From positions 27,883,183 to 27,947,182 of the forward strand of contig JASXTE010000002.1 in the NCBI GenBank assembly GCA_030280995.1: a stretch of DNA of 64,000 nucleotides, written 5' to 3'. This DNA is from Hemileia vastatrix (Eukaryota > Basidiomycota > Pucciniomycetes > Pucciniales > Zaghouaniaceae). The position numbers were made by a program, and so were the translations under genes. Below, piece by piece: positions 1 through 61,364 of this stretch (within the stretch, counting starts at the first letter, position 1; every line of letters starts with the position of its first letter). The notes under the pieces were generated by a model that saw only the letters and a program-made list of their open reading frames with translations, had not been told where the DNA came from and did not search any database.

Positions 1-2261
1 TCCTCTGTTTGTTCCACAAGATTTATCTTCTTGTCACAAACATGGCCTTTCTGCCAAGGCTTGTTGCACTTGAAGCAAGTGTTTGTTGCATACTTCTTTG
101 GTGCAACAGGGGCAGAAGGTTTACCAACCTTTTCCAGAGGTTTTTGTTGGTAAGTGGAGGGTTTCTCCAAAGGGGTCCTAGGAATGAATCTTCTTGCATC
201 ATACTTATTGTTTAGAAGTATCTCATTGCAAGTATTAATGAAAGAAGAGGGTTCTTTGGAGAACTCAGTCCTAGCCACAATCAAGTCTCTCAGAGACATT
301 GGTAATTTATAGAGGATCCTGTCCTTCCATAAATCAAACTCCATATTTGGGTCCATTGCCCTTAAGATTTTTACAAGTTTCATTAAAAACTCAATAGGTT
401 TATCAGTAGAAGAGCTATATCTGGTTTCCTCATACTGCCTTTGTTGAGCCATTCTGAACTTGGAGCCACCAAATTGTGCTTTAATTAATTTCTTCCAATC
501 CTCCCATGAATAGTCATTCCCATCCAGGAGAAAAGATTCATACCACATTAGGGCAACATTAGTGAACAAAGAAATTAATTTGGACACAATTTCCTCATCT
601 GGGAGTTTGTAAGAATTTTTTAAATTATCAATTCTGCAAATAAATTGTTGCCAATCAGAGGAAGAATCACCATCAAATGTTGGGTACTGGTCAAGTTTTG
701 GCCAATTCTTTTGATTTGAAGGAGTCTCCTTAGTACTAGCTTGTTTCTGAGTAAGAAGCAGTTGTAATTTCTCTAATTGTGCTGAAATCTCATTGTTTAA
801 TCCTTCTGTTGCAGATCCTGGTGCATCATCAGTTTTTGATGGAAACTCAGTGTTATCAACAGGTATTTCTGGATCAATTTTTATTTTAGATGAACTAGCC
901 ACAGGTACTGGTTGAGAATCCTGCACTATATGTTCCTTCACAGAATTGTCAGAATATTTTTGGTCATTTAACAATGAGTTCAATGTTTCTTCAATGGTTG
1001 TTAGTCTTGTTTTCATTCTTGGAAGACTAGATAAACTTTCATTGACAGTTGCAAAAGATAATTGATTTTTATGTTGAAAAGATGACAACTGGTCACTCAA
1101 TCTTTTCAGATTTATCTTATCTATCTCTACCTCCTGGCAACAGGCAGATACAGTATCTTTTAGTTTAGACAAATCATTTTTTATATTTTGCCATAAAGCA
1201 ATTTTCTTTTCATGGGTTGCTTTGTAATGAGACAATTCATCAGAGACTCTCTGTGTTTCACTTTTTAATGCTTGATAACCCTGATCAGTTAACAAACTAT
1301 TATATCTCTGAGTCAATTGCATATTGTTCATTATATGATTTTGCTTGGCAATAATATCTCTCAAGTGCTCATCATTAATTCTTGCTACATCCGGAGTGTT
1401 TCTCAATAAGAAAACTGAGTAACTTTCCAGACTCTCATAGAACTCAGGGTCAAGAGTTTCATCAATCACAGCCATATCAGGATTAATCATTGAGGTAGCA
1501 ATTAAAAGTAATGGATTGGATACATGAGATAACTGTCTACTATTCCCAGCCTCTATAGGTCTCAAGGTTTCATCTTGCCTTCCAGATTTACCTGAAGGAA
1601 CAGAGTCAGCCACAAGAAAAGGCACTTGAGAATCAATAGAGGGACGTACCAGGGTTTTCTGGGTATCACCATATTGGGCTTCCTTCTTCTTTTGCCTCCT
1701 TGATAAGGGTGGGGAGGAGTGGGGTTTGCCTGGGTGGGCCTTGATGGACCTACCTGAGGTAATTGATGCTGATTTTGAGCTAAGTAGTCCCACTGTGTGT
1801 TGAGCCAGTCCCACTGCCACTTGGACACTTCTACCATCTCTTGGGATTGGGGAGCCAATTGTTGTTGATCCCTGGGAGGAAGAGGTTTCCTTTTCTCTTG
1901 GAGAGATGTATTTTTTCTTTTCTCCCATTCTTCCAAGGCATCTACCCTTACCTTTAGTTTTAAGCTGTCTGTCTTTAACTCCTTTATGTGGGTTGACAGA
2001 TTCTTTATCTGCTGGGACAACGGCATCTTTTTTATTTTGAAGCCTCTTGGAAGCTCTTCTGGTGGGTTTGTCTTGGGTTTCTGATCCTGAGTATTGTCCA
2101 CTAGGATTTCTACTTCTTCCATTTCCACATCCTGTTTGGGGCAAGGATTTATTAGTTTGAGAAATTCTTCTTGTTAAAGGAGAACTTACAGAAGTAGGCT
2201 CATCATAATCAATTAAGTCTAGTTCTTCTTCATGTGCAGTAAAACCACTTTGATCAGTCAT
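1..2261 (-). CDS. E1 Gag (start of Gag-Pol), partial at window edge
   Basis: Structural Gag protein that packages element RNA in cytoplasmic particles, presumably fused to Pol as in E3 and E4. The ATG is at 2261-2259 and opens MTDQSGFTAHEEE. The first ~200 residues are Ser/Pro/Lys-rich and look disordered; they overlap a second frame. A predicted coiled-coil stretch follows. The capsid-like Retrotrans_gag region starts near residue 520 (WPKLDQYPTFDGD) and runs through FGGSKFRMAQQRQYEETRY. Near the left edge is a zinc knuckle of the form CX2CX7HXC (CFKCNKPWQKGHVC). The frame is open to base 1 in every stretch I checked. It is the only gag here without an obvious lesion, so E1 may be the youngest gypsy copy. 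Confidence 0.8.
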   Translation of the reverse strand, partial: MTDQSGFTAHEEELDLIDYDEPTSVSSPLTRRISQTNKSLPQTGCGNGRSRNPSGQYSGSETQDKPTRRASKRLQNKKDAVVPADKESVNPHKGVKDRQLKTKGKGRCLGRMGEKKKYISPREKETSSSQGSTTIGSPIPRDGRSVQVAVGLAQHTVGLLSSKSASITSGRSIKAHPGKPHSSPPLSRRQKKKEAQYGDTQKTLVRPSIDSQVPFLVADSVPSGKSGRQDETLRPIEAGNSRQLSHVSNPLLLIATSMINPDMAVIDETLDPEFYESLESYSVFLLRNTPDVARINDEHLRDIIAKQNHIMNNMQLTQRYNSLLTDQGYQALKSETQRVSDELSHYKATHEKKIALWQNIKNDLSKLKDTVSACCQEVEIDKINLKRLSDQLSSFQHKNQLSFATVNESLSSLPRMKTRLTTIEETLNSLLNDQKYSDNSVKEHIVQDSQPVPVASSSKIKIDPEIPVDNTEFPSKTDDAPGSATEGLNNEISAQLEKLQLLLTQKQASTKETPSNQKNWPKLDQYPTFDGDSSSDWQQFICRIDNLKNSYKLPDEEIVSKLISLFTNVALMWYESFLLDGNDYSWEDWKKLIKAQFGGSKFRMAQQRQYEETRYSSSTDKPIEFLMKLVKILRAMDPNMEFDLWKDRILYKLPMSLRDLIVARTEFSKEPSSFINTCNEILLNNKYDARRFIPRTPLEKPSTYQQKPLEKVGKPSAPVAPKKYATNTCFKCNKPWQKGHVCDKKINLVEQTE
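1562..2122 (-). CDS. E1 overprinted ORF2 (+1 frame inside gag), coiled-coil/WKWDW-type protein
   Basis: A second frame inside gag, +1 relative to Gag. Its ATG at 2122 lies at the same place as in E2-E5 and has good context (G at -3, G at +4). The protein has a Pro-rich N-end, the block GFKIKKMPLSQQIKNLSTHI followed by a Leu-rich helical stretch, then SKWQWDWLNTQWDYL, then HPYQGGKRRRK and a final PW. Read without splicing it continues 28 residues past PW to a stop at 1562. If the intron at 1592-1649 is removed it stops right after PW, at 158 residues, like all its relatives. Its function is unknown to me. It could be an accessory protein reached by leaky scanning. Confidence 0.6.
   Translation of the reverse strand: MEEVEILVDNTQDQKPKTNPPEELPRGFKIKKMPLSQQIKNLSTHIKELKTDSLKLKVRVDALEEWEKRKNTSLQEKRKPLPPRDQQQLAPQSQEMVEVSKWQWDWLNTQWDYLAQNQHQLPQVGPSRPTQANPTPPHPYQGGKRRRKPNMVIPRKPWYVPLLILKCLFLWLTLFLQVNLEGKMKP
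1592..1649 (-). other. E1 58-nt intron-like segment at the end of ORF2
   Basis: The minus strand shows donor GTACGT, branch-like GGCTGAC 13 bases before the 3' end, a pyrimidine-rich tail and acceptor TTCAG followed by GTAAAT. Length is 58 nt, as in E2, E3 and E5. Gag reads through it in frame. Splicing would join CCTG to GTAA and give PW-stop in ORF2. This copy is the informative one: the donor is GTACGT, so only the spliced form makes the family PW end. Confidence 0.5.
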
Positions 2262-7123: not shown

Positions 7124-8624
7124 TGTCAGGCTGAGGTCAAGTACAAAGACGTGAACTAGCTTGAATGGTCAGTTGTCTAGAAGATTTTTATGGTCCTATA
7201 TGAATACTGTAGTACAAATCCAATAAGTAGTAAAATATAATCAAAATTAAAGGTCTCAGTAATATAATTCTCACTATTTTTATATATGGCTTACAATCTT
7301 TGTAGTTGGTAGAAAAATAGATTTTATAATTCAGATACTATTCAAAAGTCTTATAAAAGTACTAATTGATATGTATTGTAATTTATTTGGTTATATTGGT
7401 TAATTGTAAATGATAAAGAATGAAGAAATACAACCAAAAACCCTCCTCCTTTTATACACAATGAGTTCCCCAATGATTCCCTTGATGTACCACCCAATAC
7501 ACAGTTAATGACGCCTCTAAACAACTAATAGACATGCCCATCAACATTCCCAGTAATTCCTGACATAATTAGAAGAGTAATAACCGCCAAAATCCTGTAT
7601 TAATAAGGAAAATCCATCAAAATTAAGAAATAAGATAAAAAGAGAATATATGCATAGTAAACAATAATATAAAAGCCTAAAGGGGAATTTTTAAGGTTAA
7701 TAATAGCTTAATAATAAGGGAGATTCACTGTAGAAATAATGGGGCTAATCCTGACATTATACTATGTGAAATTCCCATTCAAAAATACCCAATATTGACT
7801 GAGAAACCACCCAAAAACCCAAAAAAGAGTGTGAGATGTGGGGTAACTACATGCAGTCCTTGGCAGGTGCTTGCATGGGTAAATCCTTGACTAAATTTAG
7901 GCAAATTTAAGTGTGGTGATGAAATTAGACGCCAAGAGTAAGGTTATTCATGAAATTAGTGCATATAAACAAGGTCAATGCATTATTAATTAAGCTAGGA
8001 CACTAAATAAGCACCTGTCGCCTATTTTAGTGTGTTTCCCCACAGTGGGCATAGAATGTGGGGTAATTATAGTGTGAAAAAGCTAACTTTGCTAAAAATG
8101 AAGCTATTCACACGTGAAAAAAGCAGGCAGTATGTGGCCAGTACACAGAAGCCATTTCTGGCATAAAAAACACCAAATTTGAAAAGTGTTATTTTTATGC
8201 ATTTAAAATAGCCAAATCAATAGTCCTAAATAAGACAAATTGATCTGTCAAAGCGCATTTTTGATATTCTCAAATTTATGGCGCATATAGTCAACTTTTA
8301 AGTGAAATAAAGCGCATTTCTTGTTTTTTGCATAAAACAGTGAAAATAACAGCTTTAAGTGTACTTAAAAATTATTTAGCCTTATACTTAAGGTTCTTAA
8401 GCTTGCCCTAACATATTCCAACTTAATATTAAGTACCTAAGACTTATAAAAGGAGGATATATGCTTGTATATAAGGTGTTATAATGGCATATTTTGTATA
8501 TTATCATAAATTTACTTATGTATACTATTTGTGTACTCTTAATTATTATTCCCATGTATAGTCTATGTGTTTAACATAACTTATAAGTACTTTTTACTCA
8601 GTCCTGGGGATATACAGGCTGACA
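7124..8624 (-). repeat. E5 3' LTR (1501 bp)
   Basis: Plus-strand ends are TGTCAGGCTGAGG and ATACAGGCTGACA; it is nearly identical to 62035-63532 apart from scattered substitutions and small indels. The minus-strand TATA box is at 7450-7456. To its right, on the element strand, is the purine tract GGGTGGGCGAG, a polypurine-tract candidate next to the LTR. Confidence 0.9.
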
Positions 8625-9744: not shown

Positions 9745-9787
9745 ATTGGGGGTCTTTCCTTATATTTTACTTATTATTTAGTATAAG

Positions 9788-10903
9788 TGTCAGCCAGGCT
9801 ATTCCAGGAGTCCAGTAAATGATATGTAACTTATAAGACCTGAAAGAGGGGGTAAGAATTGTATTTAATGTATATAAATTAATATTTTATTGCATAATAA
9901 AATTATATAAGTATTTTATTACATACAAGTGTTATATTAATTTTATTGGTTATATAAATTTTTTATATACATTTGAATTTAACATAATATAATATATTCT
10001 ACAAATAATGGCGCATTTTTATGTATTTAATAATTATAAATTTATATTTAATTAATTAAAAACATATATTATAATTATAAGTGTAAAATTTACTTATAAT
10101 ATAATTATATTTATATATTAAATACCATTTCTTTTAATATTAAACAATAAATAATGATGCTTCTTTTGACCTATAATTGTGTCAGGAAAAACTAATTAAT
10201 ACTGAATTGAAATAAATTACATATTTGTTGCATCATAATATTTTTTGTTTCACTTAAAAATCCTTAAATCAGACTGTACCATCTGTTTTGAATGATTTTT
10301 CTCATAGTTCCTATGTTCCAGGCTTGTTTAGTTATTCACTATTTTTACTTACTGATTTGGGAACTAATGGCGGGAAAATTGGATTCTTAATTGGGGTTTT
10401 TAATTATTTGTTTCATATCTTTCTCTACATTGTTATGTTTCACTTACTCTTTGATATACTTGTTTTATTCTATTATAATTATTGTATTTACAAATATAGT
10501 GGCGCTTCAGAGGACCCATTGCCTATAAAAGGGCCTTGGATAATCCCCTGTAGCCTCATCACTTACTATACACTCAACAAATTTAATATACTTTTACATT
10601 ATGTTTATATTTTTTTTATTAGTAATAAAATTCTAATTAAAATTCTATATAACAACTTAAAGGTTGCCTTAAGTCTGATAGTAATTATATTGTTTGCCGC
10701 GCAGAAACTCTTACTTAAATAATATTAATATTAATAAAACCAATTTTGTTGTCACCTCTCAAATCACTCGTCGTTTCTTTCTCTCAAATAAATCAAATAA
10801 TCTCAATTGTTTTTATTTCTTTTATTTCTAAACTACTATCTCCTTCTTGTCCTCCTCTCTTTTCTCCCCTCTTAGCTTATCTCTTCTAGACGACTGACCA
10901 ACA
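9788..10903 (+). repeat. E2 5' LTR (1116 bp)
   Basis: Starts TGTCAGCCAGGC and ends GACGACTGACCAACA; the E2 3' LTR ends CCGACA, so one terminal base has changed. TATA box at 10524-10530. A conserved LTR frame (10288-10722) recurs in sister LTRs, but it tracks LTR identity and crosses the promoter, so I do not call it a gene. Confidence 0.92.
10524..10530 (+). promoter_or_regulatory. TATA box of the E2 5' LTR
   Basis: TATAAAA in the block TTGCCTATAAAAGGGCC, 380 bp before the LTR end and followed by CCCCTGTAGCCTCATCACT, a plausible start-site region. The same block recurs at 18537 (E2 3' LTR), 36129 (E3 5' LTR), 45032 (E3 3' LTR) and 51042-51048 on the minus strand (solo LTR). Confidence 0.7.
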
Positions 10904-11588
10904 ACTGAGGGCCTCTCCAAACAACGACGACGATCAAGCCTGGCGACGAACAACAAACGCACAGACCACCTAGCAAAAACAAAACTTTTGCCGCGACTGT
11001 GTTTTGAACTTGGTTTCGATTTCTTAGGTTTATATTATATTAATTCTTATATTATTTTGAAGTGATTTTTCGATCACTATAGTAAGTTCACCTTTGCACC
11101 TCTCACTCATATTACTATATTTTTACTGCAATAACAGTGATTTTGGCTTAATTGCTGATTCACTGAGTGTAAGTGTTCAATTATTAAAAATTTTTTTTCC
11201 TAGTTGACCATTATAGAGTGTTAAATCCTCTTAGTCCTAGAAGAATTGACATTTTTATTAATACAAATTGAATTATTAATTTAATTTTTTTATTATTATT
11301 AATTATTGTTAATTTTGGTTGACTTAAAAGTACTTTGTGCTTAGTCCCAAATATATTGCCATATTTAATATTGGTAATTAATTGGTTGAATTAACTTGAT
11401 TGTTTATTCCTAATTTAACCTTGCAATCCATTTTTTAAAAAATTAATTTTTTTATAATTATTACTTTATATTGAAAATTTTTTTTATAATTTAATTAATA
11501 AAATTTTTTTTTTTATTTGGAGCAATTATTAACTAACTTTTATTATTTTTTTTAAAAAATAAGAAGTAAATTAAATCTTCCCACTATT
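10904..11588 (+). other. E2 leader: primer-binding site and candidate leader intron
   Basis: The primer-binding site is 10906-10918 (TGAGGGCCTCTCC), two bases after the LTR. A candidate intron of 122 nt runs from GTAAGT at 11082 to TTTTTTCCTAG ending at 11203; E3 (36683-36804) and E6 (6984-7102) show the same ends. The remainder to the gag ATG at 11589 is AT-rich with homopolymer T runs and no credible frame. Confidence 0.6.
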
Positions 11589-11736
11589 ATGTCCAACAAT
11601 TTGGCTGAAAAAATGGATAACATGCAAGTGGATGAAATTGAAATTGACTATGATGCTGATACTGTGAGTACTTCTAAAGTTGGACATAAAAAATCTTATG
11701 CTAACACAAAGAATTCACATACTTCAGGATGTGGAA

Positions 11737-12270
11737 ATGACAGGAAATGTAAACAAACCAAACCCCCTTCCCCCAGCACCACAGAAGGAAGTAAAGCCTC
11801 TAGTACCTCAAGAAGGTCTTCCAAAAGGATTCAAAATAAAAAAGCTTCCTCTGCCACAACAAATCAGCAACCTGTCCAGTGATATAAAAGAGTTGAAGAC
11901 AGAAAATATGACGTACAAAGCAAAAGTAGACACATTGTGGGATCAGGTTCAAGAACTCAGGAACCAGATTCAGGCCCAGGCCCCTCCTCAGTTGCCTCCC
12001 AATCAGCCTCAGTTTCAGGCTCAACCTTCACAGCCACCCAGCTCAACCATCCAAAATCCAAATACTATCAAAGTAGAGCAATGGAAATGGGATTATCTAA
12101 TGATTCACTACCAACAGAATGTGCAACACCCTCCTCCTCATCAGCCTGGCCCATCCAGAACACCCAATTTCCATCCACCTCCTCATCCCTACCAAAAAGG
12201 CAGGAGAAAGAAGGCCCAAGCACGATCCCAAACCCAGTCTCAGGGGAAGTTTCCTCCTCTGCCATGGTAA
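11737..12270 (+). CDS. E2 overprinted ORF2 (+1 frame inside gag), 177 residues
   Basis: Starts at ATG 11737 (context GGAAATGA), +1 relative to Gag. Content: Pro-rich start, GFKIKKLPLPQQISNLSS, a heptad-like helix (IKELKTENMTYKAKVDTLWD), a Gln/Pro-rich linker, VEQWKWDYLMIHYQQN, HPYQKGRRKKAQ, ending LPW-stop. It stays intact although the Gag frame over it has a stop at 11880. The overlapped Gag frame is low-complexity Ser/Pro, whereas this frame keeps a foldable pattern shared with E1, E4 and E5. Function unknown; an accessory or particle-associated protein is possible. Confidence 0.6.
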   Translation: MTGNVNKPNPLPPAPQKEVKPLVPQEGLPKGFKIKKLPLPQQISNLSSDIKELKTENMTYKAKVDTLWDQVQELRNQIQAQAPPQLPPNQPQFQAQPSQPPSSTIQNPNTIKVEQWKWDYLMIHYQQNVQHPPPHQPGPSRTPNFHPPPHPYQKGRRKKAQARSQTQSQGKFPPLPW

Positions 12271-12324
12271 GTAATTTGGTTGATAGTCACTTGGTTATGT
12301 TTTCTAATAAATCTTCTTCTGCAG
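12267..12324 (+). other. E2 58-nt intron-like segment at the ORF2 stop
   Basis: Donor GTAAGT directly after CCATG, branch-like TTTCTAAT, tract and acceptor TTCTTCTGCAG, followed by GTAATA. The ORF2 stop TAA overlaps the donor, and splicing re-creates CCA-TGG-TAA. Gag reads through the segment without a stop; removal (58 is 1 modulo 3) would end the Gag frame a few codons on. Confidence 0.5.
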
Positions 12325-15300
12325 GTAATATTATTGAACATGGTGAAAGAACAGTTAAACCTGTTAAAAGACAGCTTCCTGTAACCAGTAGCCCTATTGA
12401 TGTAATTAGCAAATTTTCATTTGATGAACCTTTACATTTAACTTCTACTTCTTTAATTAATCCTTCTCTTGCAATTAAAAATGATTCTGTTCCCCCTGAA
12501 ATCTATACCTTAATTGAAAAAACTTCTGAGGAAATATTGAAAGATACCCTTGATTTTAATGTTGTGAAAGACAAACATGTGAGAGATGTGTTAATCCATT
12601 AAAATGATAGATTAAATAATTTACACTTGCAATGTAAAGTGAGTTCTTCTGTACAAGATACAGCTTATTTAAAAATCAAAGAGACCTTGAATATTGTTCT
12701 TAGTCAACAAAAACAAATAAGAAGTGACCATAGAGCTATCTCAGATAGAAATATCAATCTACATAAGACCTTGAGTGAATTGAAACCCCTTATTGAAGAA
12801 AATTATTCTTTCAAAAATGAAATAAAATCTCTGCAAAATGAGTTTAAAAAGCTAAAAAATGATTTCCATGCACTAAGTACCAAACACTCAGTTTCTGAGG
12901 ACAGAAATGTTCTATCTCTTGCAAAAGTAAATGACCAGATGTCTGAAATTCCAAGAATAAGAAACTATGTGTCTGACCTGCAGGAAAAGTTCTCAACCTT
13001 AACCATCAATAATGAATTAAATGAGATTGCTGTCAATAAGCTGCATAAAAATAAAGGGAAAAAACCTGAGCAAAGTTCATCCTTTCTTCCTCATATTTCA
13101 ACCATTAAACAAACTGACAATGAGTCTGTAAAATCTTTTGCTACTAGCAAAAAATCTTGTGATGGCCATGCACCAGCTGTTTCTGTAAATAATGAAATTT
13201 CTGAACACCTGGCTAGACTTCAGGAATTATTAATAATGAATAATTCAAACCAAAAAGTGGACCATCCCAGTAGTCAGAAAAATTGGCCTAAGTTAGACCA
13301 ATATCCTACCTTTGATGGTGATTATTCCTCTGATTGGCAACACTTTATCCAAAGAATTGATAATTTAAAGAGATCTTATAAACTACCTGATGAGGAAATC
13401 GTTTCTAAGCTAATTTCTTTATTTTCCAATGTAGCCTTGATGTGGTATGAATCTGTTCTTTTAGATAACAATCATTATACATGGAATGATTGGAAATCCT
13501 TGATTGAGAATCAGTTTGGTGGTTCAAAATTCAGGTTAGCTCAACAGAGACTGTATGAAAATACTAGATATGTATCCTCCTCTGTTGAAAAGCCCATTGT
13601 TTTTCTGATGAAAATAACAAAAATCCTTAGAGCAATTGATCCAAAGATGGATTATGATATTTGGAGAGATAAAATCTTGTATAAATTACCAAATTCTCTT
13701 AGGGATTTGATTGTGGCTAGAACTGAGCATGTAAGGGAAAATTCTTCTTTCATTAATATATGTAATGAGGTACTGCTCAACGATAGATATGAGCCAAAGA
13801 ATTACCTTGGTAAATCTTATAATGATCAGAATAAACCTTCTACAAAGTTCCCAGAAAAATCTGGTAAACTCTCTGCCCCAGTTGCACCTAAAAAATATGC
13901 AACAAATACTTGTTATAAGTGTAACAAACCGTGACAGAAGGTTCATGTTTGTGACAAGAAAATTCATCTTGTTGAACAAAATGAAGACACTGATGAAGTT
14001 GAACTTGATGTCGATAATTCTTCCAGTGACTGTGAAAGTAATATCTCCTATGACAATGAATCTGTTAAAGATGTTTTAATGTTGGAACATGATGTCCATT
14101 ATTTAAATAATATATCTGAAGATTGTGTATTGAATTTATCTTCAGTAGAAAATGCTGAGATAATTAAAGATATTACTAACAATTCTATTCCTATATCCCC
14201 TTTAAAGGCACCTGTTATCATTAATGGTAAAAATGTTGATGTAGTTCTTGATTCTGGTGCTGGAGGAAGTGTAGTATCTGAAAAAGCTTTGGCTTCAGTG
14301 GATAAGGAATATTTGAGTAAATTATTACCTATAACTTCTGAAAAATGGAGAGGGTATGGTTCTACCTTATTTCCTATTGGCAAATACAAAACCTCTGTAT
14401 TCTTCAAATATAATAATGGTTTTGTCAGAGCTATTTGTGAGTTTGTTGTCATGAAAAATGATAATTTGAGCAATTGGTTTATTATGGGAAATGATATTTT
14501 AACCATGTTTGGTGTGAAACTGGACCCAGAAAATAATTGCTTTACCTTAGGAATGAATGGGAAAAGGAAATTCATAATTTCCTCTCCTAGAACTTCTGGG
14601 CATTTGTTGAAATCTTGTAACTCACTGATCCAGTGTAAAGGTAGAACAACAACTGAAATGGATGATTTATTACATGAAATAAATACCTCTTCTTTTGGTG
14701 ATCAGTTGACTAGTCAACAAAAGGATTCTATTGTTGCCTCTATTACCTCTTTCCCTATGGCTTTTGCTCATGGTTCTCATGTCTTGGGAATTGTTCAGGA
14801 AGAAATGAAAATTACCTTATCCTGTAACTTGAGTGATATTCCTCCTAGTCTTAAGAAAAAACCATATCCTGCTTCTCCAACAAAAAGAAAGGATATTGAA
14901 GATAATATTGAAACATTATTGAAAATGAATATCATTGAGAAAGTGGATGTCACCCCCAAATATTGTGTCATCTCCCCAGTCTTGATTTCTTATGAAAAAG
15001 ATAAAGCTAGATTATGTGGAGATTACAGAGCTTTAAACACTTATACTGTTGATGATATTTATCCTTGACCCAGAATTAATTCAATACATGCTACCTTGCA
15101 AGGTGCCAAATTTATTAGTTGTCTGGATGGTAATAAAGGTTATCATCAAGTTCCAGTTGAGAAAAATTCTCAAAATTTTTTGCTTATTGCAACTCATATG
15201 GGAATATATAAGTATGTTAGGATGCCATTTGGCCCTAAAAATTCTCCTTCAGTTTTCCAGAAAATCATGGATAACACTTTCCATCAAGAAATTATTCAAG

Positions 15301-17789
15301 GTTGGCTCATGGTTTATATTGATGATATTATTGTTTTTTCTAAAACCTTTGATGAACATATGATTCACTTGAATAGAGTTTTCCAAAAAATGGATGAAAT
15401 AAGTATGACCTTATCTTTAAAAAAGTGTAAATTTGGTTTTCAATCTTTGAAAGTCCTTGGCCATGTTGTGTCAGGCTTACAAATTTGTGTAGACCATAAT
15501 AAAGTTGCTGCCATTCAAAATGTGAAAGCACCAACTTCTGTAAGAGAAATCCAAAGTTTTTTGGGTATGTGTGGCTATTATAGACAATATATTAAAAATT
15601 ATCAGGTCATAGCCTTGCCTCTTACAAAACTGACCAGAAAAGATGTTGCTTTTCTCTGGAATAATGACTGTCAAAAAGCTTTTGATACATTAAAAAGTTG
15701 CTTAATGACAGCCCCTATATTGGCTCTTCCAGATTTTAACAAGCCATTTGTCCTTTATACAGATGCTAGCTTTATTGGTCTGGGTGCTGCCCTTCACCAA
15801 AAGCAAATTATTAATGATAAATCCTCAGAGGTTGTAATTTGTTATATTTCAAGAACCTTAAGAAATAGTGAATTGAAATATGGTGCCACTCAATTGGAGT
15901 GCTTAGCAGTTGTTTGGGCTCTTGAGAAACTTCATTACTATTTGGATGACCAAAAATTTCAGTTAATAACTGACTGTAGTGCTGTGAATCCCTCTTAAAC
16001 CTAAAGACACCTAACAGACATATGTTCAGGTGGCAACTTGCTGTTCAAAAATACAGAGGAAGGATGACAATTATCCATAGAGCTGGAAATGTTCACTCTA
16101 ATGTTGATATGCTCTCCAGATTGCCTCTGCCAAATAATGACTCAAATCCTGCTTATGTACCTGAAGATGATACTGTTCATATCCATGGTATATTTATAGT
16201 TGATATGGAAGAGGAGTTATTACAATTAATACTGGACTCATATGATAAAGATTCTGATTTAAATAAATTGGTTACTATCTTAAATGATCCTAAGAATGCT
16301 TCAATTCAAGCATTAATAAAAACTCTTCCTGCAAAGTACCAAAATTCTTTAAATAAAGGAAAGTTCTCTATTGAAGATGGTTATATATATTATAGAAGGA
16401 AGCTTACCAATGTAATTGTAATTCCTCCTTCAATGAAAGAAACTATCCTCAAACTTTGTCATGATGGCATATTAGCTGGTCATTTTGATCTTGAAAAAAC
16501 ATTGATTAGAATAAAAAACACTGCATGGTGGGCTAATATGTCTGAAGACACAAAATTATATGTTGAATCTTGTGATTCCTGCCAAAAATCTAAAAGGTTA
16601 ACAGGTAAGAGAGCAGGGTTATTACAACATATTGAAGCACCTAGTGCTCCCTGGCAAATCATTAATATGGATTTTGTCACTGGTCTTCCTGTTGCAGGTA
16701 AAGACAGCTTTAACTCTTGTTGGGTAATAGTGGATAGATTCACAAAAATGTGCAAATTTATTCCAACCCACAAAGATGTATCCACCAAAGAATTAGCTTT
16801 CTTATGGTGGTCTTACATGTTTAATATTATTGGTTTTCCAAAAGCCATTATCTCTGATAGGGATCCAAAATTCACTTCTGAGTTTTGGACCTCTTTGATT
16901 GATATTTGTGGCTGTGAGTTAAAATTGTCTACAGCTCACCATCCTCAGACTGATGGTCTAGCTGAAAGAATGATTCAAACTCTGGAAGATATGATTAGAA
17001 GGTATTGTGCCTTTGGTTTAGAATATAAAGAAAATGACAGATTTACTCATGATTGGGTCACTCTTTTGCCTGGTCTTGAATTTGCATATAATAGCACTGT
17101 TCATTCTGTCACTGAGAAAAAGCCTTTTGAGCTTTGTTTAGGTTATGTCCCAAATACTCCTGCTCAGATTCTCAATAATAAATTACCTAAGTTGGAACTA
17201 CACCCTGGTGTAAAATCTTTTATGCAAATGCAACAGCTATGCAGAAAACATTCTCAGAGTTGTATTGATAAAGCATTTGAATATGAAAAGAAAAGATGGG
17301 ATAAATCCCATAAAGAATACACATTTAACAAGGGTGATGAAGTGTTTATCTCTACTGTACATTTCAATTTACAAGGTAACCACAAATTAAAAGATCCTTT
17401 TGTAGGACCATTTGTTGTTAAAAGAATGATTGGTGATAATGCAGTAGAAGCTGTATTGTATTCTCCATATGATAGGAAACATCCTGTCTTTCCCATTTCT
17501 TTGCTTAAGCCTTATACTTCCAACAGTGACTTATTTCCAAAAAGAAGAGGAAGACCTAAGAAGAACCCTCAGGAAGTCACAGAAACAGCAGAAATTGATA
17601 AAATTCTCAATGATAGAATTATCACTTCTGAAAGAGGTACTGAATATTTATTGAGATATAAGAACAAATCATCTGAACATGATGCATGGATACCTGGCAA
17701 GGAAATTTCAAATCTGCCTACTCTGTTGAAAAAATACAAAAAGAAAAAATCTTAGCATTTTTTTTATTGTTTTTTTTAGAGTGAGGGAG

Positions 17790-18915
17790 TGTCAGCAAGG
17801 CTATTCCAGGAGTCCAGTAAATGATATGTAACTTATAAAACCTGAAAGAGTGGGTAAGAATTGTATTTAATGAATATAAATTAATATTTTATTGCATAAT
17901 AAAATTATATAAGTATTTTATTATATACAAGTGTTACATTAAATTTATTGGTTATATAAATTTTATATACATTTAAATTGAACATAATATAATATATTCT
18001 ACAAATAATGGCGCATTCTTATGTATTTAATAATTATAAATTTATATTTAATTAATTAAAAACATATATTATAATTATAAGTGTAAAATTTACTTATAAT
18101 ATAATTAAATTAATTAATTATATTTATATATTAAATATCATTTCTTATAATATTAAACAATAAATAATGACGCTTCTTTTGACCTATAATTGTGTCAGGA
18201 AAAACTAATTAATACTGAATTGAAATAAATTACATATTTGTTGCATCAGAATATTTTTTGTTTCACTTAAAAATCCTTAAATCAGACTGTACCATCTGTT
18301 TTGAATGATTTTTCTCATAGTTCCTATGTTCCAGGCTTGTTTAGTTATTCACTATTTTTACTTACTGATTTGGGAATTAATGGCGGGAAAATTGGATTCT
18401 TAATTGGGGTTTTTAATTATTTGTTTCATATTTTTCTCTACATTGTTATGTTTCACTTACTCTTTTATATACTTGTTTTATTCTATTATAATTATTGTAT
18501 TTACAAATATAGTGGTGCTTCAGAGGACCTATTGCCTATAAAAGGGCCTTGGATAATCCCCTGTAGCCTCATCACTTATTACACACTCAACAATTTAAAG
18601 ATAAATTTATTACGCTTATTATTATTTTTATTAGTATTAAATTCTAATTAAAAATTCTAAATAACAATTTAAAGGTTGCCTTAAGTCTGATAGTAATTAT
18701 ATTGTTTGCCGCGCAGAAACTCTTACTTAAATAATATTAATATTAATAAAACCAATTTTGTTGTCACCTCTCAAATCACTTGTCGTTCCTTTCTCTCAAA
18801 TAAATCAAATAATCTCAATTGTTTTTATTTCTTTTATTTCTAAACTACTATCTCCTTCTTGTCCTCCTCTCTTTTCTCCCCTCTTAGCTTATCTCTTCTA
18901 GACGACTGACCGACA
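17790..18915 (+). repeat. E2 3' LTR (1126 bp)
   Basis: Starts TGTCAGCAAGGC and ends GACTGACCGACA, followed by TSD ATAAG. TATA box at 18537-18543. Differences from the 5' LTR are scattered substitutions and a few short indels, so the insertion is not recent but both LTRs are easily aligned. Confidence 0.92.
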
Positions 18916-18920
18916 ATAAG

Positions 18921-19386: not shown

Positions 19387-19471
19387 ATGAGTGCTCCCCA
19401 GGACAGTGTAAGTGAAAAGCCTGCTTATAATAGCAGGTCTAAAGCTAACAAAAACTTTCCAGGACATCACC

Positions 19472-19933
19472 ATGGAGGGTCAACAATACCCCCAGGCAGA
19501 AAGCATGAGTATAGAGGAAAAGGATGCCCTCTTAAAAAAGATAACTATAAAAAAGATGTCTCCTCCTCTTCAGGATCAACTGTCCCACCTGGCCAAACAG
19601 GTTCTGAAATTGGAGGAATCAAAATCACTCATGTTCAAAGAGGTAGAGCAGTTGCAAAACAATTGCAAGGTAGGGTTTCAGCAGATGAATCAGGCATTGG
19701 CAGAGTTAAAGGGAGGCCATACCAGTCAGTCAAATCAGCAACCCCCTATCCAAGGCGGGTCAACTCACTCCCAGGAGAAAATCCTGGTAGACAAATGGAA
19801 ATGGGACTGGTTTCATCAACAGTGGACAAGCCACAGTTGCAACAGGGATCTGCCACCTCATCTTACTTCCTCAGCTCACCCTTACAAAGGAAAAAAGCAC
19901 CAAAAATCAGGACTGGCAACCATTCCATGGTAA
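19472..19933 (+). CDS. E4 overprinted ORF2 (+1 frame inside gag), 153 residues
   Basis: ATG at 19472 has a strong context (CACCATGG). The protein opens MEGQQYPQAESMS and has a helical stretch LQDQLSHLAKQVLKLEESK, then VDKWKWDWFHQQW, HPYKGKKHQK and a final IPW-stop. The E5 ORF2 also opens MEGQ, which ties the start to the family. It is +1 to Gag, as in the other four copies. Both the N-terminal helix and the C-terminal block are shared with diverged copies, while the overlapped Gag residues are not well kept. Confidence 0.6.
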   Translation: MEGQQYPQAESMSIEEKDALLKKITIKKMSPPLQDQLSHLAKQVLKLEESKSLMFKEVEQLQNNCKVGFQQMNQALAELKGGHTSQSNQQPPIQGGSTHSQEKILVDKWKWDWFHQQWTSHSCNRDLPPHLTSSAHPYKGKKHQKSGLATIPW

Positions 19934-19981
19934 GTAGATTACCCTCTCAGATTTAACATAATACTGATAATTACAATATAG
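19930..19981 (+). other. E4 52-nt intron-like segment at the ORF2 stop
   Basis: Donor GTAAGT after CCATG, branch-like ATACTGAT, acceptor ACAATATAG followed by GTAATT. Shorter than the 58 nt of the others but the same length modulo 3. Here Gag has a stop inside it (19954). Confidence 0.5.
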
Positions 19982-29628: not shown

Positions 29629-30544
29629 TGTTGAAATTTCTGCCTCTAATACCTGACCCATTCCTTACTCCAGCTTCTTACCATCGTCTCAAGTCATTCT
29701 CCTTGCTCATATCCTCTTTTCCTGACCTTTTCCGCCGAGGAACTTCAAAGATACGAGCTCCAGCATCAAGAACAACATTTCTTTCCCACCCGGAGTCAAT
29801 GTATTGATTCTGGACCTCGAGGACGTGTTTCTTTACCTGGAGTGTGAATCTTTTCCCCGGCTGGGAACTTTTTCCTTGGATGTGAACCTGTCTCTTTTTC
29901 TGTATTGTAGTTTAGTAGTTTTGTCGACGTCGTGTTAGTTTCTATTGTTTTGGATGGTGGACTTTGTCATATAATGAGGCCTCTCTTTGCCATTTCCGTT
30001 TTCCCCATCCAAATCTTTTTCTTTCTCTTTTTCTCTATTCTCTTTATCCCTTCCACTGCTTCTTCCTGTCCACTGCTTTCCCTTTTGGCCGCATCTGACA
30101 GGCTTTGCACTGTGTGGGGAGAATAGAGTCTTTTGTCCAGGTTCTTTCCTTTTCTTTTCTGTTATTTTTTCTCTAATTCTTTTAGTCCTAACCACAGCAG
30201 CTCACACTTGTGTCCCTTATAGTTTTAGCACACGCTTTGTTGTAGTTACTTGTTGTTGTAAGGTGCACAGTTGCTGATTGACCTGTGTTTAGGTATGTTT
30301 GTTTTTGCAATGAAATCCAAATCTTTTTCTTTCTCTTTTTCTCTATTCTCTTTATCCCTTCCACTGCTTCTTCCTGTCCACTGCTTTCCCTTTTGGCCGC
30401 ATCTGACAGTCTTTGCACTGTGTGGGGAGAATAGAGTCTTTTGTCCAGTTTTAGCACACGCTTTGTTGTAGTTACTTGTTGTTGTAAGGTGCACAGTTGC
30501 TGATTGACCTGTGTTTAGCTTTCCTTTGTGCTAAAACTTCTACA
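29629..30544 (+). repeat. copia1 5' LTR with internal duplication (916 bp)
   Basis: TGTTGAAATTTC to CTTCTACA. Two blocks occur twice within the LTR: a C/T-rich block with ATCTGACAG (about 30008-30140 and 30310-30450) and a block with CACACGCTTTGTTG (about 30223-30292 and 30454-30521). The solo LTR at 44394-45001 has single copies and is 608 bp, so the duplication separates two LTR subtypes. Short frames within it follow the repeats and are not genes. Confidence 0.92.
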
Positions 30545-30558
30545 GGTTATGGGCCCAG
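30545..30558 (+). other. copia1 primer-binding site
   Basis: GGTTATGGGCCCAG directly after the LTR. It is complementary to the anticodon stem-loop of initiator tRNA-Met (CUCAUAACC region), not to a tRNA 3' end. Copia-type elements are known to prime from a cut half of this tRNA. Confidence 0.75.
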
Positions 30559-30702
30559 TTGCCTAAAGCACCTCTCTCAAGAATACTTACAACAAAACCG
30601 CTTACTGAACAATAAAACAGCCTTTTCTCTCAGATTTTGGATCACCCTCTTCACATCTCATCTTCTTTCTCTCCAAATCTTTGCTGTTGACTCGACCAAA
30701 TC

Positions 30703-33700
30703 ATGGCCTCCAATCAGGATTCAAGTAAGGTTATGGTCACCCCTCTCACTGACGAATCCTATGACACCTGGGAACACATTATGCGTCTTCACTTTGAAGT
30801 TCTGGATCTTTTTGGCATTGTTTCTGGACAAGTCCCTGCCCCTGTTCCTCACAATGATGGTTCACCTTCAGACGCTGAAATCAAAGCTCAACTTGCTTTA
30901 TGGATCAAAAATGACACCAGGTGCAGGTATGAAATCATCACCAGATTGGATGATGTTAACAAGAAGCTGGTCAACACTTGCCACACCTCTGCTCAAATGT
31001 GGTCTGTTCTTGCAAGAAGACACGCCAGCAATAAAGTTGGATCACGGATTTCTCACTTTCTCTCTATGGTTACTCTTTCTCTTTCTGAAGGAGGAGACCC
31101 CAAAACTCATGTTGATGCATTCAAAGGCATTAACTTCCATATGATCCGTTCTGGGCTCATCATTCCCCAGGAAATTCTTATTTATCTCTTTTTTGCCACT
31201 CTTCCACCCTCCTTCAAACATTGGCGTGGTTTGCTCACCAGAGACAGACAGGAAATTGATCACCTGCATCTGGATGATGTTTTATCTTCTTTCCTGGATT
31301 ACGCTGCTGATGACAAAGTTGTTGATGAATTTCACAATGCTATGTCAAATGTCAATGCTCACTCTGCCTCAGCTAAATCATCAAAATCATCCAAATCCAA
31401 GGCACGCAGCAAACTCTCATGTTCTGTTCATGGTCAAAATGTTGGACATGATGACAATCATTGCTTTGTTCAACATCCTGAACTCCGTCCCAAGAAGAAC
31501 CAAGCCAACTCAGCTGCCCCATCAAAGGACAATTCCAACAAAGCAACTCCTGTTCCCCCTCCTCAGGAAGAACAACCTGATGCCACGGCCAATTGTGCTT
31601 TTGTCTTCCCTTCTGATGAAGAATTTCTTTTTACAGCTGTTGCTTGTTTGTCTGAAAAATCAAATTCTGACTGCATTATCAACGCTTCTGCTTCCATGGC
31701 TTCTCATTCCTCAAACCTTTCTCCAATTATTGATTCTGGGGCCAGCTGTCATATGTTTAACAACAGAGACAGTTTTATCAGTTTTCAACCTGTCAACATT
31801 CGAATTCAACTTGCTGGTATTGGGAAATCAATCTATGCAACTGGAAAAGGAACTGTTGCTGCTTCTGGAGGAATGGAAGGAAAAGTTTTCTTTTCTGATG
31901 CTCTTTATGTCCCTGATCTTGGAAGGAATCTCATCTCCCTGGGACGTCTTTGGAGAACTGGTTGTCTTCTCATCCCTGCACCAGTTAATCCTACATCAAA
32001 CTTCATTATTTCACGTAATGGAAAGAATTATATGGGAGGAGTCATCTCCAATTCATTATTTGAAGTTTCTGTGGTTCCACAAGGCATGTCTCCCCCTAAC
32101 TCCTCAGCTCTCTATGCAAAAGCTTCAAGTCAGTCTCTAACTCTCTGGCACAACAGATTAGGACATCCCTACGCCCCATATATTCAAAAACTTTTTAATG
32201 GAATGGCATCTGATGTATCTAGTTCTAGTTTGTCTGACTCTGAAATGCATTTTTGTGAACCGTGTGTGTTGGGTAAACAAACCCATGCTTCCTTTCCTGG
32301 CCAGTTGCCTGTTGCCAAAAATCCTCTTGAAGTTGTCCACACAGATTTATCTGGGAAAATTCAGCCTCCTTCTTTTGATGGGTCTCAGTATTACCTTAAG
32401 TTCACTGATCAGGCCACTTCATACCGTCATGTTTACCTTCTTTCCTCAAAAGCCCAAGTATTCAAATATTTCTTGGAATATAAGGCATCTGTAGAGCTGC
32501 AATCTGGCTTCAAAATCAAAAAGCTTGTTTGTGACGGTGGTGGTGAGTATATCAACTCTAGTCTGGTCAACTTTCTTAAACAACATGGCATTGCTCTTCA
32601 AGTTACGGCTCCTTACACTCCCCAACAAAATCCAATTTCTGAGAGAGGAAACCGTATTACCACTGAAAAATCCAAAACCATGATGTTTCATTCTAATGCA
32701 CCAATTCACCTATGGTCTGAAGCAGTTAAAACAGCAGTATATCTTGAAAACAGATTACCAACCAAAGCTCTTCAAAACAAATCAACTCCTTTTGAAGCCT
32801 GGAATAAATCCAAACCCAGAGTTTCACACCTCAGAGTTTTTGGTTGTGCTTGCTATGCTTTCCTTGATAAACATCAACGTCCTGGAAAGTTTTCAGCTAA
32901 CTCCAGAAAGTGTGTCATGCTTGGATATGAAGTTGGAACAACAAATTATCGTGTTTGGGACCTTGAGCTTAAAAAGATTGTTATTGCCAAATCTGTGGCC
33001 TTCAATGAAAATTTCTTCCCCTTTCTTGACTCCAGATTTAAGCGCCCTCAATGGTCACAACTGATGAAGCAAATTCCAGATCAAATTCATGACAGTCAAC
33101 CACTTCCAACACCTGGCCTTTCCTTTTCTCCAGCTCAATCTCCTTCTGAGTCTCCAACTCCTGATCCATCCTCAGGAAACATTTCTGATTCACATTCTGA
33201 AGATAATTCTCCTTCTTCTTCTTCTTCCTCTGATTTTCACATGTCAGGCACACCTTCCAATTCAACTCCTTGTCCTTCACCTGGTCACTTAACAAGATTA
33301 CCTCATTCCAATGTCCCAGATGAAGAAGGTTCCAGTCAATCTGATCCATCATATTCATCAATTGAGCCAGACAATCCAGCAGATCCTGATTATGTTCCCT
33401 CATCACAATCCCCCAGTTATTCTGACATCTCTTCAGCTGAAACATCAACTCCTGAACATTTACGTCAGATTTATTATGATCATTATCAACATGATTCCTA
33501 CTCTGATTCTCCTGATCCTCTTGGGTTATATGCAGCAAATGCCTTTGCTTTCTCTCTAGAAGCTCCCTTGCTAGCTCATGAAATTCCTGAACCCCAGTGT
33601 TATAAGCAAGCAATCTATTCCAAATATTCAGCAGAATGGGCAGAGGCTGTGAAACATGAACATCAAGCACTTCAGCGTTGTAACACTTGGAAAATTGTCC

Positions 33701-35187: not shown

Positions 35188-36058
35188 CCCATTCCTTACT
35201 CCAGCTTCTTACCATCGTCTCAAGTCATTCTCCTTGCTCATATCCTCTTTTCCTGACCTTTTCCGCCGAGGAACTTCAAAGATACGAGCTCCAGCATCAA
35301 GAACAACATTTCTTTCCCACCCGGAGTCAATGTATTGATTCTGGACCTTGAGGACGTGTTTCTTTACCTGGAGTGTGAATCTTTTCCCCGGCTGGGAACT
35401 TTTTCCTTGGATGTGAACCTGTCTCTTTTTCTGTATTGTAGTTTAGTAGTTTTGTCGACGTCGTGTTAGTTTCTATTGTTTTGGATGGTGGACTTTGTCA
35501 TATAATGAGGCCTCTCTTTGCCATTTCCGTTTTCCCCATCCAAATCTTTTTCTTTCTCTTTTTCTCTATTCTCTTTATCCCTTCCACTGCTTTCCCTTTT
35601 GGCTGCATCTGACAGGCTTTGCACTGTGTGGGGAGAATAGAGTCTTTTGTCCAGGTTCTTTCCTTTTCTTTTCTGTTATTTTTTCTCTAATTCTTTTAGT
35701 CCTAACCACAGCAGCTCACACTTGTGTCCCTTATAGTTTTAGCACACGCTTTGTTGTAGTTACTTGTTGTTGTAAGGTGCACAGTTGCTGATTGACCTGT
35801 GTTTAGGTATGTTTGTTTTTGCAATGAAATCCAAATCTTTTTCTTTCTCTTTTTCTCTATTCTCTTTATCCCTTCCACTGCTTCTTCCTGTCCACTGCTT
35901 TCCCTTTTGGCCGCATCTGACAGTCTTTGCACTGTGTGGGGAGAATAGAGTCTTTTGTCCAGTTTTAGCACACGCTTTGTTGTAGTTACTTGTTGTTGTA
36001 AGGTGCACAGTTGCTGATTGACCTGTGTTTAGCTTTCCTTTGTGCTAAAACTTCTACA
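35160..36058 (+). repeat. copia1 3' LTR (899 bp)
   Basis: Same ends as the 5' LTR, followed by TSD ATATA. It lacks 17 bp of a short CACTGCTT-type repeat near 35588, has CTTGAGG for CTCGAGG, and is otherwise almost identical. Confidence 0.92.
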
Positions 36059-37193: not shown

Positions 37194-37341
37194 ATGTCCA
37201 ACAATTTGGCTGGAAAAATGGATAACATGCAAGTGGATGAAATTGAAATTGACTATGATGCTGACACTGTAAGTTCTTCTAAAGTTGGACATAAAAAATC
37301 TTATGCTAACACAAAGAATTCACATACTGCAGGATGTGGAA

Positions 37342-37875
37342 ATGACAGGAAATGTAAACAAACCAAACCCCCTTCCCCCAGTACCACAGAAGGAAGTAAA
37401 GCCTCTAGTGCCTCAAGAAGGTCTTCCAAAAGGCTTGAAAATAAAAAAGCTTCCTCTGCCACAACAAATCAGCAACCTATCCAGTCATATAAAAGAGTTG
37501 AAGACAGAAAATATGACATACAAAGCAAAGGTAGACACATTGTGGGATCAGGTCCAAGAACTCAGGAACCAGATTCAGGCCCAGGCCCCTCCTCAGTTGC
37601 CTCCCAATCAGCCTCAGTTTCAGGCTCAACCTTCACAGCCACCCAGCTCAACCATCCAAAATCCAAATACTATGGAAGTAGAGCAATGGAAATGGGATTA
37701 TCTAATGAGTCACTACCAACAGAATGTGCAACACCCTCCTCATCATCAGCCTGGCCCATCCAGAACACCCAATTTCCATCCACCTCCTCATCCCTACCAA
37801 CAAGGCAGGAGAAAGAAGGCCCAAGCACAATCCCAAACCCAGTCACAGGGGAAGTTTCCTCCTCTGCCATGGTAA
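37342..37875 (+). CDS. E3 overprinted ORF2 (+1 frame inside gag), 177 residues
   Basis: ATG at 37342, collinear with E2. It has GLKIKKLPLPQQISNLSS, the helix IKELKTENMTYKAKVD, VEQWKWDYLMSHYQQN, HPYQQGRRKKAQ and ends LPW-stop. Most differences from E2 are conservative or lie in the linker. The stop TAA overlaps a GTAAGT donor. It is complete although the Gag frame is frameshifted further on. Confidence 0.6.
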   Translation: MTGNVNKPNPLPPVPQKEVKPLVPQEGLPKGLKIKKLPLPQQISNLSSHIKELKTENMTYKAKVDTLWDQVQELRNQIQAQAPPQLPPNQPQFQAQPSQPPSSTIQNPNTMEVEQWKWDYLMSHYQQNVQHPPHHQPGPSRTPNFHPPPHPYQQGRRKKAQAQSQTQSQGKFPPLPW

Positions 37876-37929
37876 GTAATTTGGTTGATAGTCACTTGGG
37901 TATGTTTTCTAATAAATCTTCTTCTGCAG
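37872..37929 (+). other. E3 58-nt intron-like segment at the ORF2 stop
   Basis: Donor GTAAGT, branch-like TTTCTAAT, acceptor TTCTTCTGCAG followed by GTAATA, identical in layout to E2. Gag is open across it. Confidence 0.5.
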
Positions 37930-38397: not shown

Positions 38398-38658
38398 CAC
38401 CACACAATATGGGGGGCGGACTTGCTAGCAAGTCCGCAACCTTGGACCCAAACTCACCATAGATTGAACACACATTGACCTATTGATAAAGGAACCATTC
38501 AATCAGGGATGAACACCACTCAGCAGAACAGTTTTAGGTGGGTGTTCAAGTAGAGTTCAGTATGGGTTCAGTATGAGTTCAGTCTGAGTTCCATCTGAGT
38601 TCCATCTGAGTTCAGGTTGAGGACTTGCTAGCAAGTCCACCCCCCATATTGCGTAGTG
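38398..38658. mobile_element. CACTA-type MITE inside E3 gag (261 bp)
   Basis: Absent from the same site in E2. TSD CTT (38395-38397 and 38659-38661). The 38-bp terminal inverted repeats start CACCACACAATATGGGGGG on the left; the right end read inward is CACTACGCAATATGGGGGG. Each ends in the perfect palindrome GGACTTGCTAGCAAGTCC. A 3-bp TSD with CACTA termini points to the CACTA (EnSpm) superfamily. The interior has direct repeats of TGAGTTCAGT/CATC type (about 38560-38620) and no coding capacity. Confidence 0.88.
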
Positions 38659-60772: not shown

Positions 60773-60830
60773 CTATAAGTAATTTATTGTCAGGTTGATA
60801 CAATTGACTATGAGGAGTTGGATGAATTAC
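60773..60830 (-). other. E5 58-nt intron-like segment at the ORF2 stop
   Basis: Minus strand: CCTTG then donor GTAATT, branch-like ACCTGAC, acceptor ACTTATAG followed by GTAATG. Gag reads through without a stop. Same length and layout as E1-E3 despite strong divergence of the bases between the signals. Confidence 0.45.
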
Positions 60831-61276
60831 CAAGGTCTTATCCCACTTCCCCTGCCTCTCCTTGCCTTTCCCCTGTAAGGGTGACTGCTGGAGCCCTTCT
60901 GTTGAGTATTGTTGTAATTTTGGGCGTACCAATCCCATTTCCATTTGCTTACTGTGATTTTTTGATCCTCCTCTTGGGCTGGAGGTGTTGCTATGGAATT
61001 GGTGGGTGCCACTGATGGTGGTTGAGCCTTTATGTCCACTAGAGCTTGGTTGACTTTGATGAAACCTTGAGCTACTCTTTTCTCCAGATTGTTGATCTGG
61101 TCCACTATATTGTTGACTCTTATTGTCAAGGTGTTCAGTAGGCTGGATAGGGAGTGAATTTGTTCTTGTAATGTATTTTTTGCTTTCTTTATTGAAACTT
61201 GCTTTAAAAGCCTTTCCCTTTCCCCCAGAGACATTGGCGGAGTGTTGTTTTTTATGGGAGAGTCCTGGCCCTCCAT
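60827..61276 (-). CDS. E5 overprinted ORF2 (+1 frame inside gag), 149 residues
   Basis: ATG at 61276, protein opens MEGQDSPIKNN as in E4 (MEGQ). Helical stretch LQEQIHSLSSLLNTLTIRV and VNNIVDQINNLEKRVAQGF, then VSKWKWDWYAQNYNN, HPYRGKARRGRG, ending IRPW-stop. It is +1 relative to Gag, like the other four. It is intact although E5 Gag-Pol has many lesions. Confidence 0.6.
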   Translation of the reverse strand: MEGQDSPIKNNTPPMSLGERERLLKQVSIKKAKNTLQEQIHSLSSLLNTLTIRVNNIVDQINNLEKRVAQGFIKVNQALVDIKAQPPSVAPTNSIATPPAQEEDQKITVSKWKWDWYAQNYNNTQQKGSSSHPYRGKARRGRGSGIRPW

Positions 61277-61364
61277 TTGAATGTCCTGTAACAGGTCTTT
61301 CAGCTCTAGGTCTTAAGTTATAAGGTTTTGCCTTATTACTTACAATGTCATTGTTGTCACACAT

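Follow-up and report, generated by a model that had tools for sequence, protein, structure and literature searches.

The gag regions of five LTR retrotransposons in the window, the whole stretch of 64,000 nucleotides of Hemileia vastatrix DNA analysed here, carry a second coding frame, and its product, ORF2, is very probably (we put this at about 0.88) a real, selected protein encoded by exon 2 of a spliced RNA. The frame, +1 to Gag, is present in all five gag copies (E1 to E5), and the encoded proteins are related. E2 and E3 are sister copies, and E1 to E5 represent four sequence groups, here called families. Comparison of copies across the genome shows, at the level of DNA sequence, the intron boundaries, the exact loss of intron 1 in three families and protein-level selection on ORF2. 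That the spliced RNA is translated we infer from the same sequences. In the proposed scheme one start codon would give two proteins from the same DNA. In unspliced RNA the Gag ATG would be read through both small introns into a Gag-Pol polyprotein of about 1950-2060 residues, while removal of intron 1 (55-64 nt) would join the same ATG and 7-25 common residues to the second frame of exon 2, which is ORF2. Intron 2 appears to be removable too, as traced for E2 and its relatives, and because its boundary restores the same ORF2 stop, loss of intron 1 from the RNA would preclude Gag-Pol. Splicing would act as a switch: unspliced RNA would provide Gag-Pol and the genomic RNA, and spliced RNA would provide ORF2. 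The features, in window coordinates, are the following.

9786..10904, + strand: 5' LTR of E2 (self-BLAST, 95.2% to 17788-18916)
17788..18916, + strand: 3' LTR of E2 (self-BLAST, 95.2% to 9786-10904)
2190..2261, - strand: E1 exon 1 (predicted splice anatomy)
2132..2189, - strand: E1 intron 1, 58 nt (30 junction places; exactly these bases absent in 4/4 fetched copies)
1650..2131, - strand: E1 exon 2, ORF2 frame
1592..1649, - strand: E1 predicted intron 2, 58 nt, GTACGT donor (kept in 4/4 fetched intron-1-less copies)
11589..11663, + strand: E2 exon 1, Gag ATG plus 25 codons common to Gag-Pol and spliced ORF2 (spliced copies L188, L189)
11664..11727, + strand: E2 intron 1, 64 nt, frame-switching, GTGAGT...CTAAC...CAG (17 junction places, control 0; exactly absent in 2/2 fetched)
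11728..12266, + strand: E2 exon 2, ORF2 frame, including the originally reported ATG at 11737; the Gag frame passes in the other phase
12267..12324, + strand: E2 intron 2, 58 nt, GTAAGT...CTAAT...CAG, starting within the ORF2 stop TGG TAA (26 junction places, as pattern matches; control 0)
12325..12334, + strand: start of E2 exon 3 (GTAA...), which restores TGG TAA on splicing
37194..37268, + strand: E3 exon 1 (predicted splice anatomy)
37269..37332, + strand: E3 intron 1, 64 nt (predicted splice anatomy)
37333..37871, + strand: E3 exon 2, ORF2 frame
37872..37929, + strand: E3 intron 2, 58 nt (predicted splice anatomy)
19387..19407, + strand: E4 exon 1 (predicted splice anatomy)
19408..19462, + strand: E4 intron 1, 55 nt (7 junction places, control 0; exactly absent in 2/2 fetched)
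19463..19929, + strand: E4 exon 2, ORF2 frame
19930..19981, + strand: E4 predicted intron 2, 52 nt (kept in 2/2 fetched intron-1-less copies)
61344..61364, - strand: E5 exon 1 (predicted splice anatomy)
61286..61343, - strand: E5 predicted intron 1, 58 nt (predicted splice anatomy)
60831..61285, - strand: E5 exon 2, ORF2 frame
60773..60830, - strand: E5 predicted intron 2, 58 nt, GTAATT in the window copy (GTAAGT in 20/20 capsid-chosen family copies)

The host elements are Ty3/gypsy LTR retrotransposons. LTRs lie on both sides of E2 gag-pol, and in the E4 polyprotein the gypsy-type domains RVT_1, RT_RNaseH and RT_RNaseH_2 score above the Pfam cut-off, with RVP at 20.5 bits slightly under its cut-off of 20.7. 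By eye, an integrase can be read 3' of RNase H, followed by a chromodomain-like tail. In the genome copies the capsid frame continues as a single Gag-Pol frame. Stop-to-stop frames, counted by eye among the best 150 matches listed per query, measure 1962 codons in 28 E4 copies, 1976 codons in 22 E5 copies, 2060-2062 codons in 14 E2 copies and 2010 codons in 33 E1 copies, and because of this length they are taken to begin at the Gag ATG. Of 30 E4 loci chosen by ORF2, 12 have a Gag frame without stops over the whole fetched sequence from its ATG on.

Gag and spliced ORF2 would share the Gag ATG and then 7 (E4, E5), 24 (E1) or 25 (E2, E3) codons before donor 1, a GTAAGT or GTGAGT placed at a codon boundary. 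Acceptor 1 is CAG/GAY (the slash marks the boundary), 9 nt 5' of the originally reported ORF2 ATG. Intron 1 measures 58 nt in E1, 64 in E2 and E3, 55 in E4 and 58 in E5; all these lengths are 1 mod 3 and therefore removal brings the Gag ATG into the ORF2 frame. At the other end of exon 2 the ORF2 stop TGG TAA doubles as donor 2 (TG/GTAAGT), with GTACGT as the differing donor 2 of E1. Intron 2 is 52 nt long in E4 and 58 nt in E1, E2, E3 and E5. GTAA stands directly 3' of acceptor 2, and splicing restores TGG TAA in all five copies. The ORF2 protein is identical with or without intron 2 in E2, E4 and E5. A joining of ORF2 in frame to downstream Gag through a later acceptor was considered as well and dropped, the conserved acceptor restoring the stop.

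Two minor observations concern this boundary. In E2 to E5 the ORF2 stop codon is encoded twice, before and after intron 2 (for example around 12267-12324 of the window). In the E1 family, ORF2 would end in PW if intron 2 were spliced; with intron 2 (1592-1649, - strand) kept it reads on, to 213 codons in the intron-1-less copies L184-L186, and acquires a leucine-rich hydrophobic tail. This tail may be a chance product of pyrimidine-rich intron sequence.

The splice signals were followed in copies chosen by capsid similarity and blind to ORF2, ORF2-chosen copies being unsuitable since they are selected for ORF2 similarity. Queries taken from the capsid region further 3' in E4, E5, E2 and E1 were run against the genome, and the 5' gag was fetched from 40, 20, 40 and 10 copies, respectively. 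These were hand-picked, non-randomly, from the 150 best matches in each query listing, those of E2 and E1 being confined to the plus strand; 107 of the 110 loci were usable (L106 was partial, L149 and L168 gave no match). In another count 13 of 16 E5-type rows were parsed. Across the four families donor 1 reads GTRAGT in 104 of 107 copies and acceptor 1 reads CAG in 104 of 107. Donor 2 is GTAAGT in 94 of the 97 copies of E2, E4 and E5, and GTACGT in nine of the ten E1 copies. YAG/GTAA is found at acceptor 2 in 96 of 97 copies of E2, E4 and E5, the families covered at this site. A branch motif CTRAY lies 18-27 nt before the intron end in seven of eight family introns, the exception being intron 1 of E5, against a background in gag-pol of 79/819 control AGs and 4/46 YAGGs (binomial 5.5e-7). 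At seven donor sites Val-Ser is spelled GTRAGT, with 0.087 expected at each, a circular figure in that the sites were found by GTRAGT; the second site of E1 encodes Val-Arg.

Genomic copies from which the introns are missing provide a further line of evidence. The 25-26 nt exon 1-exon 2 junction was searched in the genome with at most two mismatches for the E1, E2 and E4 families. It occurs 30 times for E1 (5 exact), 17 times for E2 (15 exact) and 7 times for E4 (4 exact), 54 sites in three families, and the reversed-pattern control, which addresses composition only, gave 0 in each case. The exon 2-exon 3 junction of E2, which marks loss of intron 2, occurs 26 times (19 of them exact; none in the control) and is also present in 6 of the 17 E2 intron-1-less places, always at a spacing of 543. 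Eight of the 54 intron-1 sites were fetched (4 E1-type, 2 E2, 2 E4), and the other 46 as well as all 26 intron-2 sites stand as pattern matches. In 8/8 fetched copies the predicted intron 1 is exactly missing. The sole other gap in the covered part is one base in intron 2 of L189 (the tabulation covers gaps), and outside intron 1 identity to the window copy is 88-99%. The Gag ATG reads into ORF2 in all eight, and in seven to PW or further; in L189 the reading halts at a stop after 45 codons. Intron 2 is present in all eight. Some junction sites lie in pairs separated by about 8 kb, and some have common variants; the sites are therefore not independent. A single chance deletion is nevertheless unlikely, because three families and several sequence variants lack intron 1. 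The intron-less copies speak for the formation and reverse transcription of spliced RNA, and not for its translation; it is through the junction places in the E1, E2 and E4 families that ORF2 can be read as encoded by spliced element RNA.

A two-base variant beside the junction is common to 11 of the 30 E1-type intronless sites, including L187 (G000 C121:36803150-36803900), which is 88% identical to E1. These 11 sites may descend from one spliced ancestor. The lineage seems to have spread without the intron, in spite of a Gag ATG that now opens ORF2, and it was perhaps mobilised in trans.

The two overlapping frames both seem to be kept open. When ORF2 was fixed and its synonymous codons were shuffled, the Gag frame acquired on average 4.5-8.1 stops against 0 or 1 observed (P <= 0.004 for each copy). 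With Gag fixed, the ORF2 frame acquired 1.4-1.9 stops on average against 0 observed (P 0.04-0.13 per copy; 0.008 for the four families combined). The third frame has 11-14 stops in the window copies. Among the capsid-chosen copies, 83 of 107 (for E5, 5 of 20) have no indels when compared with the window copy; Gag is open in 71 of these. The original prediction named two ways in which it could fail, stops in the +1 frame as frequent as in the third frame and substitutions neutral for ORF2, and on both counts the second protein held up. The ORF2 frame is open in 73 of the 83 indel-free copies and the third frame in none, and the frame-wise comparison of substitutions in 91 of the 107 capsid-chosen copies finds ORF2 constrained, with Gag and the third frame giving no signal.

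This comparison sets exon 2 variants seen in at least two copies, which are mostly transmitted, against singletons, which mostly reflect decay after insertion. In the ORF2 frame, shared variants comprise 45 synonymous and 45 changing ones against 78 and 198 among singletons (Fisher test, one-sided, p=0.0002; 0.0005 when stratified), although shared variants are not phylogenetically independent of each other. The corresponding counts in the Gag frame are 23 and 67 against 63 and 213 (p=0.35, stratified 0.89), and in the third frame 12 and 78 against 53 and 223 (p=0.93). One shared stop lies in ORF2, against 6.7 expected, and none in Gag, against 5.4 expected; singleton stops number 12 in ORF2 (20.6 expected) and 16 in Gag (16.9 expected). 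Taken by family the one-sided p values for ORF2 are modest, 0.09 for E1, 0.018 for E2, 0.021 for E4 and 0.44 for E5, where the test has two shared variants only. A positive control was run on the capsid region of loci chosen by ORF2 (24 of 30 for E4, 22 of 28 for E2): the Gag frame gives p=0.0001, the two other frames 0.63 and 0.97. Exon 2 appears constrained as ORF2 protein, because shared variants spare ORF2 amino acids, while the overlapping Gag stretch would be held open with residues that carry no constraint detectable in the shared-versus-singleton test. Between families, too, it is ORF2 whose protein is conserved. This conservation, together with the selection on the frame, bears out the original proposal of an accessory protein that overlies gag and is common to the four groups, and the earlier remark that ORF2 is more alike than the overlapped Gag holds both between families and in shared variants. 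The suggestion that ORF2 might be the older frame fared less well: codon usage is nearer to pol in the Gag frame than in ORF2 in all four families, a weak sign that Gag is older.

Spliced ORF2 comprises 185 residues in E1, 205 in E2 and E3, 163 in E4 and 159 in E5, and ends P-W-stop. Its net charge is -3 to -14 near the N-terminus and +4 to +8 over the last 40 residues, and it has a W-x-W-D motif and an HPY-basic block. AlphaFold models, built with five sequences, contain one long helix (36-84 in E5, 39-80 in E2; block pLDDT 88-97 in the core) and a weaker second helix that bears W-x-W-D (pLDDT about 50-70), with the remainder disordered; mean pLDDT is 66 and 63, with low confidence beyond the long helix. 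The models thus hold one confident helix and no globular domain. Against Pfam the four ORF2 types gave nothing above the gathering score, and only sub-cut-off matches, many of them to coiled-coil families. An ORF2 profile found no match among 5.8 billion predicted proteins and IMG/VR. This absence says little about other fungi, because the gag-side part of the same element likewise found no match.

Several other readings of the frame have to be set against a protein made from spliced RNA. The original prediction pictured ORF2 as translated by leaky scanning, and a matching internal ATG does exist in all five window copies. In E4 there are no ATGs between the Gag ATG and the ORF2 ATG, and the latter lies in ACCATGG, a strong start context; at -3 the base is G in E1 to E3 and C in E5. 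However, other ATGs intervene in E1 (4), E2 (7), E3 (7) and E5 (1), donor, branch and acceptor signals are conserved around the ORF2 frame, with splice signals in each of the four families, the codons ahead of the ORF2 ATG (D-V/I-x-M) are similar in the ORF2 frame, and intronless genomic copies occur in three families (E1, E2, E4). Translation from an own internal ATG on unspliced RNA, by leaky scanning or by reinitiation, is hence very unlikely. The chance that ORF2 simply reflects Gag codon use and yields no product we consider almost negligible: its openness given Gag is not very improbable in single copies, as the shuffling shows, but ORF2 is the conserved frame between families and its amino acids are spared in shared variants. 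Splicing might also serve only to withdraw RNA from Gag-Pol production, as in BARE- or copia-like RNA pools, with the ORF2 peptide being incidental. Splicing of intron 1 would indeed abolish Gag-Pol, and BARE1 has a small (104 nt) alternative intron in gag that shifts the frame and abolishes pol, the spliced RNA encoding only Gag (PMC3735527). Such a control of RNA pools would not predict conservation of, and selection on, ORF2 amino acids, and we give it very little credence. Unlike in BARE1 and copia, the spliced RNA here would encode a different protein without capsid, the frame stopping before the capsid domain.

If ORF2 is a spliced and selected protein, its role can be approached by comparison. 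Rev of HIV-1 and Rex of HTLV are small basic regulators made from spliced RNA. The influenza proteins NEP and M2 have the start and a few residues in common with another product and are then spliced into another frame of the same segment, though influenza is a segmented RNA virus and unrelated. The closest coding plan is that of CERV in Cer1, a Ty3/gypsy-related element of Caenorhabditis: according to PMC10309623, CERV is made from spliced RNA, has its N-terminus in common with Gag and then uses another frame over gag, and Cer1 runs from gag to pol without a stop. The same paper describes a potential leucine zipper, a candidate NLS and a basic patch, M and G domains, a length of 517 residues from five exons and a requirement for CERV in the export of unspliced genomic RNA, and it treats Rev as well (PMC10309623). 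ORF2 likewise uses the Gag start and then another frame overlapping gag, and its long helix and the positively charged last 40 residues are candidate counterparts of the leucine zipper and basic patch. In contrast to CERV, it has 159-205 residues, one frame-switching intron and the W-x-W-D and HPY-basic motifs. We do not file ORF2 as CERV, because M and G domains are absent, as judged by length and models, and the likeness drawn here is one of coding plan. From Rev and Rex it differs in host and element class, and RNA binding and export are only proposed for ORF2. Gypsy elements with spliced transcripts are known from Ogre, CRR and Bagy2, where splicing joins or separates ORFs or yields env RNA; unlike here, an overprinted accessory protein is not described for them in the portion of PMC3735527 consulted. 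Literature searches, covering listings of open-licence PMC papers, turned up no comparable accessory protein, overprinted or spliced, from LTR elements of fungi.

Because CERV has the same coding plan, a CERV- or Rev-like role is proposed tentatively for ORF2: an oligomeric RNA-binding regulator that would free unspliced genomic RNA for nuclear export or from further splicing, in the manner of CERV in Cer1 and Rev in HIV. The acidic N-terminus, the coiled-coil-like long helix, W-x-W-D and the basic C-terminus could fit such a role. A real, spliced ORF2 might instead be a Gag assembly or nucleocapsid-like partner, assist integration or counteract host silencing; taken together, these other roles have about an even chance. 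A coiled coil, a basic C-terminal tail and a tryptophan motif are compatible with many partners, and ORF2 has no known family above the Pfam threshold; production solely from spliced RNA would, on the other hand, suit a regulator of splicing or export, by analogy with what PMC10309623 reports for CERV. A possible, though doubtful, extension of the regulator role is that these LTR retrotransposons independently evolved a retrovirus-like early/late switch, in which spliced RNA would yield ORF2 first and unspliced RNA, let through by ORF2, would then serve Gag-Pol and packaging. Overprinting of ORF2 and Gag would allow both states to use a single start codon.

As a rule, gag-pol is all that is read in an LTR retrotransposon. 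In the four families described here, which are abundant in one very large genome, gag would harbour a second, fast-evolving yet selected protein, which suggests that gag in such elements may be misannotated. The coding plan as such is known from CERV; new here is ORF2, a small overprinted protein that would be made by splicing with one frame-switching intron. ORF2 is a concrete candidate for the handling of unspliced genomic RNA by an intron-bearing element, and the copies that have lost an intron form a natural record of spliced RNA copied back. Together with the nematode CERV, ORF2 points to more than one origin of overprinted spliced accessory proteins outside retroviruses.

The window contains further repetitive features. 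The gag of E3 has about 260 extra bases relative to E2 at 38398-38658, with flanking parts 94.6% and 97.2% alike. A copia-type element (29629-36058) with one frame of 1494 residues (30703-35187) is inserted in the 5' LTR of E3, and the two terminal repeats of this element, at 29629-30544 and 35160-36058, share 98% identity. An antisense E2-type LTR (50675-51796, - strand), 88% identical to the E2 LTRs, lies between the frames of a second copia-type element (49991-55612, + strand). Finally, a direct repeat pair of 1.5 kb (7124-8624 and 62035-63532) is 97% identical across a distance of 55 kb.
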